Positions 17,392 to 19,195 of a DNA stretch of 32,385 bases are shown here, piece after piece. Source of the DNA: Candidatus Portnoybacteria bacterium RIFCSPLOWO2_01_FULL_43_11 (GTDB lineage Bacteria > Patescibacteriota > Minisyncoccia > Portnoybacterales > UBA2143). How positions within the stretch are numbered: the first letter of the stretch is position 1; every line of letters starts with the position of its first letter. Position numbers and translations under genes: made by a program. The DNA lies in contig MHNE01000011.1 in NCBI GenBank assembly GCA_001819605.1, positions 1 to 32,385 of the forward strand. Direction: 5' to 3'. Under the pieces are notes generated by a model. The model searched no databases and was not told the DNA's origin. It saw nothing but the letters and a program-made list of their open reading frames with translations.

Positions 17392-18162
17392 CTATATTTT
17401 AATGAATTCTTTAATTATATTAACGGGCGCTGTTTTAGTCAATCCGTTCTGATTGACTAAATTCAAACCAACTACCTCTCCTTTTGTGTTAATCAAGGGC
17501 CCGCCATTGGCCAAAGGATCTTCCTCGCTTAAGTTAAGCGAGATTGTTTCTTCTTTGATACCCCTGATGGTTCCAAGGTTTATAAAACGATAAAAATTAT
17601 CTTTTGGGACTTGCCCCGCATCTTTTTCTAAAAGGTGCGGGGTCTGAACGCCCATTAAAATAATTCTTTCGCCTAAGGCCAGTTCGTTAAGATCAGCCAA
17701 AGGAACAACCGGCAAATTGGTCTTTTCTATTTTTAAGAGAGCTAGATTGTTTTTCCCGTCTCTTTTAATGACTTGAGCCGTTGAAGAACTGTTTTCTTGA
17801 AAGACCAAATATTGGCCGGCTTTTTCAGGAACCAAATCAGCCGCGGTTATAATTAAACCGTCGGAAAAAACAATAAAGCCGGTTCCTTCGCGGATAATTT
17901 GTTTATTTTTGGATAAAGTCTGAACAGCCGTTATTGAAGGATTTATCCGTCTGATTGCTTCTTCGGCGGCAGTATTTTCCGCGATAGTGATTCTTTCAGT
18001 TTTATTTATAATAGTCGTTCCGTCTTTAGCCCGCTCAATGAATTCTATTTGAGAAAAAAAGGGAGCATCGGCCAAAAACGGCAGAAGAAACTGGTCAGCC
18101 AAAACGCCGCCCAGTCCGCCAATTATTAAAATAAGGATAAGCTTAAATATTTTTTGCTTCAT
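17392..18162 (-). CDS. HtrA/trypsin-fold protein, apparently catalytically inactive
   Basis: 'GTGFIVFSDGLIITAADLV', 'NNLALLKIEKTNLPVVPLAD', 'PLANGGPLINTKGEVVGLN' align by eye with HtrA motifs but lack His, Asp and Ser. Confidence 0.72.
   Translation of the reverse strand: MKQKIFKLILILIIGGLGGVLADQFLLPFLADAPFFSQIEFIERAKDGTTIINKTERITIAENTAAEEAIRRINPSITAVQTLSKNKQIIREGTGFIVFSDGLIITAADLVPEKAGQYLVFQENSSSTAQVIKRDGKNNLALLKIEKTNLPVVPLADLNELALGERIILMGVQTPHLLEKDAGQVPKDNFYRFINLGTIRGIKEETISLNLSEEDPLANGGPLINTKGEVVGLNLVNQNGLTKTAPVNIIKEFIKI
17614..17642. repeat. Class II palindrome, copy A (inside trypsin-fold ORF)
   Basis: CCCCGCATCTTTT tct AAAAGGTGCGGGG; 13 bp arms, one G-T mismatch. Confidence 0.85.
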
Positions 18163-18205
18163 TGGTTTTCTAAAACAAAATAAACCAATTAAACACTTTA
18201 GTCAA

Positions 18206-18330
18206 CCCCGCACCTATTGAACTTTGTCTAAAAAAGATTTTTACTTTTTTAACATTCCTAGAATTTTGCTAATTATTTTTAAGGAAATACATGATTTAAT
18301 TTATGTTAATTAAGTTCAATAGGTGCGGGG
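18206..18330. repeat. Class II palindrome, copy B (overlaps 3' end of pilD)
   Basis: 19 bp perfect arms CCCCGCACCTATTGAACTT / AAGTTCAATAGGTGCGGGG around an 87 bp AT-rich core. Confidence 0.9.
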
Positions 18331-19195
18331 TCAAACTTTCACCAAATAACATCATAAAAACAGCCGCTCCGGCCAAAAACGGGCCAAACGGAATTTGAGA
18401 CTTCAGAGTCTTTTTTTTAAAAGCGATTAAAACTAAACCAATAACCGCTCCGCTCATAAAAGCTAAAAACAAAGCCCATAAAACATTAGGCCAACCCAAA
18501 ACCAAACCCATTAAAACGGCTAATTTAACATCGCCCATTCCCATCCATTTGCCTTTGGAAACAAGAACTAAAAATAAAAAAAATCCGCTCGCTACTAGTG
18601 CTGAAAGGAGACCGTCCTTTAGGGCGAGACCCGGATCTCTGCCTAAGGGCAGGACTCCATTAAAAATTAACCAGATGCCAGCCGCTATTATGGCCGGGTA
18701 AATAATTCTATCCGGAATAATATAGTGCTTTAGATCGTAGACGAAAATGATAATCAAAATACTGATAATATAAAACCAGTAAATAAGCAGTAATAAATTT
18801 CTAATTTCTATCCCGTATTTAATACGGGACAAATCCCAAATCCCAAATCTAAAATCTAAAACTTTAAAAGATATTAATAAAAATAGAATTCCAGCGGCTA
18901 ATTCAACTAATGGGTATTGCCAAGAGATTCTATTGTAACAATATCGACACCGGCCTTTTTGAAGAACAAAGCTAAAAAGAGGAATCAAATCATACCACCT
19001 TAAAACAACCCGGCATTTTGGACAATGAGAGCGAGTCATTAACCCCGCACCTTTTGAAGATAGACTTCGTCTTTTGAAAAAAATCTTCAAAAGGTGCGGG
19101 GTAAAAATTGACTCTTTGGTTTTTAAGCGATAAATAACAACATTTAAAAAACTGCCGATAATAAGGCCGAAAAGAAAAATCAAAACGCTAAACAT
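18296..19195 (-). CDS. pilD: Prepilin peptidase
   Basis: 'GLIIGSFLNVVIYRL', 'HCPKC...CRYCYNRISWQYPLVEL', 'YDLKHYIIPD', 'GMGDVKLAVLMGLVLGW'. Confidence 0.93.
   Translation of the reverse strand: MFSVLIFLFGLIIGSFLNVVIYRLKTKESIFTPHLLKIFFKRRSLSSKGAGLMTRSHCPKCRVVLRWYDLIPLFSFVLQKGRCRYCYNRISWQYPLVELAAGILFLLISFKVLDFRFGIWDLSRIKYGIEIRNLLLLIYWFYIISILIIIFVYDLKHYIIPDRIIYPAIIAAGIWLIFNGVLPLGRDPGLALKDGLLSALVASGFFLFLVLVSKGKWMGMGDVKLAVLMGLVLGWPNVLWALFLAFMSGAVIGLVLIAFKKKTLKSQIPFGPFLAGAAVFMMLFGESLTPHLLNLININ
19043..19101. repeat. Class II palindrome, copy C (in-frame inside pilD)
   Basis: 19 bp arms CCCCGCACCTTTTGAAGAT / ATCTTCAAAAGGTGCGGGG with a 21 nt loop. Confidence 0.92.

Follow-up and report, generated by a model that had tools for sequence, protein, structure and literature searches.

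The 125-bp palindrome at the 3' end of pilD in the 32,385-nt stretch of DNA analysed here (the window) is, judged by sequence comparison, a decayed and internally deleted GIY-YIG palindromic element that gave pilD its final codons and stop codon. It probably represents a degenerate, non-autonomous form of a very small transposable element. A copy with identical arms that carries a GIY-YIG endonuclease gene was found in the same 702-kb genome (G000), and it indicates a type of transposable element that is widespread in bacteria; the literature searched, outside which most subscription journals lie, yielded no description of GIY-YIG elements with inverted ends from bacteria.

The pilD-terminal palindrome and two further copies

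Three copies of the palindrome and two host genes were delimited in the window:

17392..18162, minus strand: trypsin-fold protease gene, 256 aa (PF13365), host of copy 1
17614..17642, minus strand: copy 1, 29 bp, an older insertion, in frame, that adds 11 residues (33 bp = 29 + 4)
18202..18205, no strand: left target-site duplication (TSD) of copy 2, TCAA; TCAA is also found at the matching site of the congener G001
18206..18330, minus strand: copy 2, the 125-bp palindrome at the end of pilD; arms identical to those of C27:15300-15601, core aligned with it
18206..18224, plus strand: left 19-bp arm of copy 2, CCCCGCACCTATTGAACTT
18296..18298, minus strand: pilD stop codon (TAA), within the core of copy 2
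18296..19195, minus strand: pilD, type IV prepilin peptidase, 299 aa (PF06750 and PF01478)
18312..18330, minus strand: right 19-bp arm of copy 2, whose minus-strand reading is PHLLNL of PilD
18331..18334, no strand: right TSD of copy 2, TCAA
19043..19101, minus strand: copy 3, 59 bp, in frame in the N-terminal region of PilD, adding 21 residues, FTPHLLKIFFKRRSLSSKGAG (63 bp = 59 + 4)

As described in the initial annotation, the arms of copy 2 are perfect (18206-18224 and 18312-18330 are complementary at 19 of 19 positions, or 20 of 20 with the flanking A/T) and enclose an 87-bp core. The right arm does encode the end of PilD (...TTG-ACC-CCG-CAC-CTA-TTG-AAC-TTA-ATT-AAC-ATA-AAT-TAA, the arm part being PHLLNL), and the stop codon does lie inside the core. 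Replacement of the native C-terminus, which had been suggested from the window, was supported when the PilD C-termini of six family relatives were compared: G001 ends in ...LFNDYLTQALNWFMLG and the window protein in ...LFGESLTPHLLNLININ, with LTQALNWFMLG in G001 at the place of the tail LTPHLLNLININ. PilD has lost its last ~10 codons to this copy (125 + 4 = 129 bp), and insertion near the end of the gene would have supplied the new tail together with its stop codon.

Next to the right arm, in the orientation of pilD, the core aligns with the 3' end of the GIY-YIG gene on C27 (GMLKK*KSFLDKVQ* versus EMLKRRLRYFLNKVQ*), and copy 2 is therefore read as an internally deleted GIY-YIG element. The end-anchored alignment scored 35, with a maximum of 30 among 3000 dinucleotide shuffles (0/3000 as high); the unanchored score of 42 lay below the shuffle maximum of 52, and significance thus comes from the end-anchored comparison only. 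No alignment was obtained for the opposite orientation in the end-anchored comparison.

By comparison with relatives, the other two copies are insertions as well. At the site of copy 3, a gap of exactly 21 residues was found in all relatives readable there, and its flanks (TTAA/TAAA) match at three of four bases. Copy 1 corresponds to exactly 11 residues missing from the orthologues in G004, G007 and G008, and G001 carries a decayed version of equal length. The possibility that copy 1 was no insertion, raised by this equal length, was overturned by the wider family comparison. The copies differ in age: copy 1 was in place before the sister species G001 diverged, and copies 2 and 3 are missing from that genome. 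These unequal ages, together with at least about 19 complete copies spread over the genome, argue against the local proliferation proposed earlier, so a purely local burst does not account for the window copies. The window showed no transposase, as had been noted.

A mobile family with 4-bp target duplications

The window has five occurrences of the motif CCCCGCACC, where 0.03 would be expected, and G000 has 25 of ACCCCGCACCT, whose reversed control gave no hits. The complete paired-arm copies in G000 range from 26 to 302 bp in length. At least 10 paired copies were present in the part of G001 examined, and the exact paired pattern was missing from the other 53 relatives searched. Membership of one family is evident, at the level of sequence, from the arms: the outer bases CCCCGCACC are invariant, and the inner bases vary from copy to copy yet covary, with 96% of cells pairing and 23 double-change cells versus 7.3 after shuffling (0/500). 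The unit comprises two inverted arms, each with a constant outer CCCCGCACC(T) followed by a variable yet self-complementary inner part.

Comparison of flanks and orthologous sites established both the target duplication and the mobility of the family. Direct repeats just outside CCCC/GGGG were exactly 4 bp long in 16 of 29 elements from G000 and G001, and none reached 5 bp; shuffled pairs gave on average 2.2 exact repeats, with a maximum of 9 over 2000 shuffles. Mean flank identity was 0.77 at 4 bp and dropped to 0.28 by 6 bp. Specifically, empty sites in G001 with a gap equal to the element plus 4 bp were identified for C2:10414 (69 bp), C2:21261 (66 bp) and C9:11135 (33 bp). Including copies 1 and 3, exact in-frame gaps in relatives were found for five copies. 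Insertion seems to take place at short A/T-rich targets (TTGA/TCAA, TTTA/TAAA, TGAA and CTTA) with exact 4-bp duplication.

ORFs run through eight copies without meeting a stop codon, and in all eight the length plus 4 is divisible by 3, as expected if in-frame insertions survive. Short stop-free copies with a length of 3n-4 may therefore persist in genes as in-frame peptides. Additionally, the TTGA duplications of C27:15300, C8:10885 and C28:10303 (G000) coincide with TTGAC(A)/-35-like boxes, so that insertion keeps the downstream box intact.

An intact tRNA-Arg gene lies within CCCCGCACC arms at L032:4519-4621 (G000 C8:78018-78120) and at L116:7415-7517 (G001). In both cases the arm pair splits the T-loop of a second tRNA-Arg whose anticodon is identical (TCT in G000, GCG in G001), and the units look like elements with a replacement tRNA. 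Another CCCCGCACC element, L092:10106-10179 (G001 C7), is located in a region covered by a second LSU rRNA match, which is partial. Horizontal carriage by viruses was considered and rejected: the CCCCGCACC pattern was found in only two GC-rich viral contigs, at a chance-like level, and GIY-YIG relatives were rare in viruses.

GIY-YIG elements in this and other genomes

The copy at C27:15300-15601 (~302 bp) shares all 19 arm bases with copy 2 and has TTGA on either side. Its sole gene encodes an 87-aa GIY-YIG endonuclease (PF01541, 6e-16), which demonstrates the linkage of arms and GIY-YIG gene in sequence terms. Apart from GIY-YIG or tRNA, no genes were found between the arms. No clear empty site for this copy was found in G001, where the right flank alone aligns. 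We regard this copy as the likely autonomous form.

GIY-YIG relatives were detected in 47 of the 55 relatives searched, with at most 13 per genome, and a capped scan of GTDB genomes, in which stand-alone GIY-YIG genes numbered more than 500, yielded 80 GIY-YIG loci from many phyla. Inverted arms scoring at least 14 were present at 38 of these 80 loci, compared with rates of 1% for mismatched pairs and 5.7% for 647 neighbouring ORFs; about half of the loci had no clear arms. Typical arms were CCCCCACACC..., CCCCTCACC..., CCCCGTTAGA... and CCCTGTTAAATA..., and the shared architecture of one GIY-YIG gene with inverted arms in ~275-320 bp was found in many Patescibacteria and in other phyla. Arm type follows the GIY-YIG tree, whose hosts include Patescibacteria, Planctomycetota, Bacteroidota, Pseudomonadota and others. 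The evidence for this is good, though not blinded: 13 changes were counted against a mean of 41 after shuffling, with labels that were partly manual, half-matches pooled with full ones and many weak forks in the tree.

Arms of at least 13 bp were present at 69 of 175 GIY-YIG genes, and an exact 4-bp TSD at 11 of these 69 (shuffled 0.97, maximum 5). In G029, two units that are 94.5% identical lie 10 kb apart in different surroundings; their homology ends at the arms, and their TSDs are CACA and CTTA. Direct TSDs are mostly missing from the elements with CCCCGTTAGA arms. Three elements with CCCCTCACC arms (L060, L187 and L205) are flanked by 7-bp direct repeats at the 5' ends of tRNA genes (Val, Val and Ala), and these repeats end in ...TAG, directly before CTCAG/CTTAG.

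Swarms of short CCCCGTTAGA...TCTAACGGGG palindromes with compensating inner arms were observed in G030, G022 and 16 other relatives (46 copies in G030 and 17 in G022, with none for the control), and several of them have 4-bp TSDs. We lean slightly towards the view that GIY-YIG elements of ~300 bp, widespread in Patescibacteria and present in several other phyla, are the origin of the protein-coding palindrome swarms. L069 (G048, a genome assigned to the class of G000) and L203, from a Candidatus Sungbacteria MAG, have identical GIY-YIG elements, which suggests that G000 belongs to the Patescibacteria of that class.

The candidate mobilising enzyme and alternative explanations

We infer, as rather likely, that the GIY-YIG protein is the mobilising enzyme, a hidden DDE transposase being possible. 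GIY-YIG dimers would bind the inverted ends and cut both these ends and a staggered 4-bp target, after which joining of the element and filling of the gaps would leave the 4-bp duplication; short copies would be mobilised in trans. Against this reading, characterised GIY-YIG homing enzymes make cuts with 2-nt 3' overhangs; the loci with no clear arms, the mostly missing TSDs of the CCCCGTTAGA elements and the 7-bp repeats of the three CCCCTCACC elements also weigh against it. With a candidate enzyme present within identical ends in the same genome, the question of what mobilises protein-coding palindromes can be put to the test. Should GIY-YIG be the mover, a single-domain unit of ~300 bp would rank with the smallest autonomous DNA transposons; its chemistry would be one that the literature searched does not describe for transposition in prokaryotes, and it would account for the many stand-alone GIY-YIG genes that the small genomes of Patescibacteria carry. 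Mobile DNA supplies these small genomes with peptides and gene ends.

The family resembles MITEs in its terminal inverted repeats, fixed-length TSD, size of tens to hundreds of bp, high copy number and lack of a transposase of its own, and in having a larger gene-bearing parent with the same ends. It differs in that the presumed parent encodes a GIY-YIG nuclease, not a DDE transposase, and in the variable yet self-complementary inner arms. Penelope-type retroelements use a GIY-YIG nuclease for transposition, whereas the elements described here have no reverse transcriptase and total ~300 bp. Free-standing GIY-YIG endonucleases are likewise single-domain proteins of ~85 aa (PMC1564403), but here inverted repeats and TSDs enclose the gene, which is moved as a unit; the terms 'inverted repeat' and 'palindrom' do not occur in that survey of the GIY-YIG superfamily (term search). 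Rickettsia has been known since 2000 to carry protein-coding palindromes (cited in PMC10969869). The Rickettsia palindromic elements (PMC10969869) are also short and non-autonomous and add peptides in frame to unrelated protein genes, an insertion behaviour found here too. Sequence and host differ, and the present family has an exact 4-bp TSD and a gene-bearing GIY-YIG copy with identical arms in the same genome.

It is possible, though we consider it rather unlikely, that the short palindromes are MITEs driven by an unseen DDE transposase, GIY-YIG being a passenger or a homing gene lodged in a MITE. Inverted arms with a clean 4-bp TSD are the classic DDE signature, 4-bp TSDs being typical of these enzymes. 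A single CCCCGCACC copy has GIY-YIG, and the GIY-YIG genes of G001 bear other arm types, which speaks against the GIY-YIG role. Moreover, in L247 (G053) the GIY-YIG ORF, intact in the sister copy L244, is itself interrupted by an inserted short palindrome, CCACGTTAGAAAATA...TATTTTCTAACGTGG. On the other side, only GIY-YIG or tRNA genes were found between arms. Searches with PF01609 and PF00665 gave no DDE gene within arms, the search covering three transposase families and G000 being 83.5% complete. PF01609 (DDE_Tnp_1) and PF01797 were absent from G000 at this completeness, PF01609 and rve were absent from G001, and the one rve gene of G000 lies outside CCCC arms. Arm sequence follows the GIY-YIG tree across phyla, and near-identical GIY-YIG units, as in G029, move whole with their TSD. 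Pure homing, in which the element is copied in by host repair after GIY-YIG cleavage of the target, without transposase-like strand transfer, appears improbable. The GIY-YIG fold is known from homing nucleases (PMC1564403), the nuclease domain (PF01541) is present, and several elements sit at tRNA genes that they rebuild. Homing requires homologous flanks, yet the copies are found in unrelated sequences with only ~4 bp in common, not solely at homologous allelic sites.

That the palindromes are not mobile DNA but hairpins of host-functional RNA, kept in place by selection as terminators or regulatory RNA, is hardly credible: the arms do covary as a stem would, but copies lie in frame within coding genes, are bounded by target duplications and have empty sites in relatives, and they match no Rfam family. 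Equally remote is movement of REP-like hairpins by a Y1 transposase through single-strand transposition. The initial annotation had proposed mobile palindromes of this REP/RAYT kind; mobility is borne out by the TSDs and empty sites, but not the manner of movement. Repeated palindromes of similar size are common to both systems, and G001 has three Y1 genes. PF01797 was not detected in G000 (83.5% complete), no Y1 gene of G001 lies within CCCC arms, the gene-bearing form encodes GIY-YIG, and the elements leave 4-bp TSDs; we know of no RAYT/IS200-type transposition that makes exact 4-bp target duplications. A Y1 gene flanked by the arms of copy 2 was sought elsewhere, and none was found in G000. 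The three Y1 transposase genes of G001 (L216, L217 and L218) each lie amid their own distinct, unrelated REP-like palindromes.
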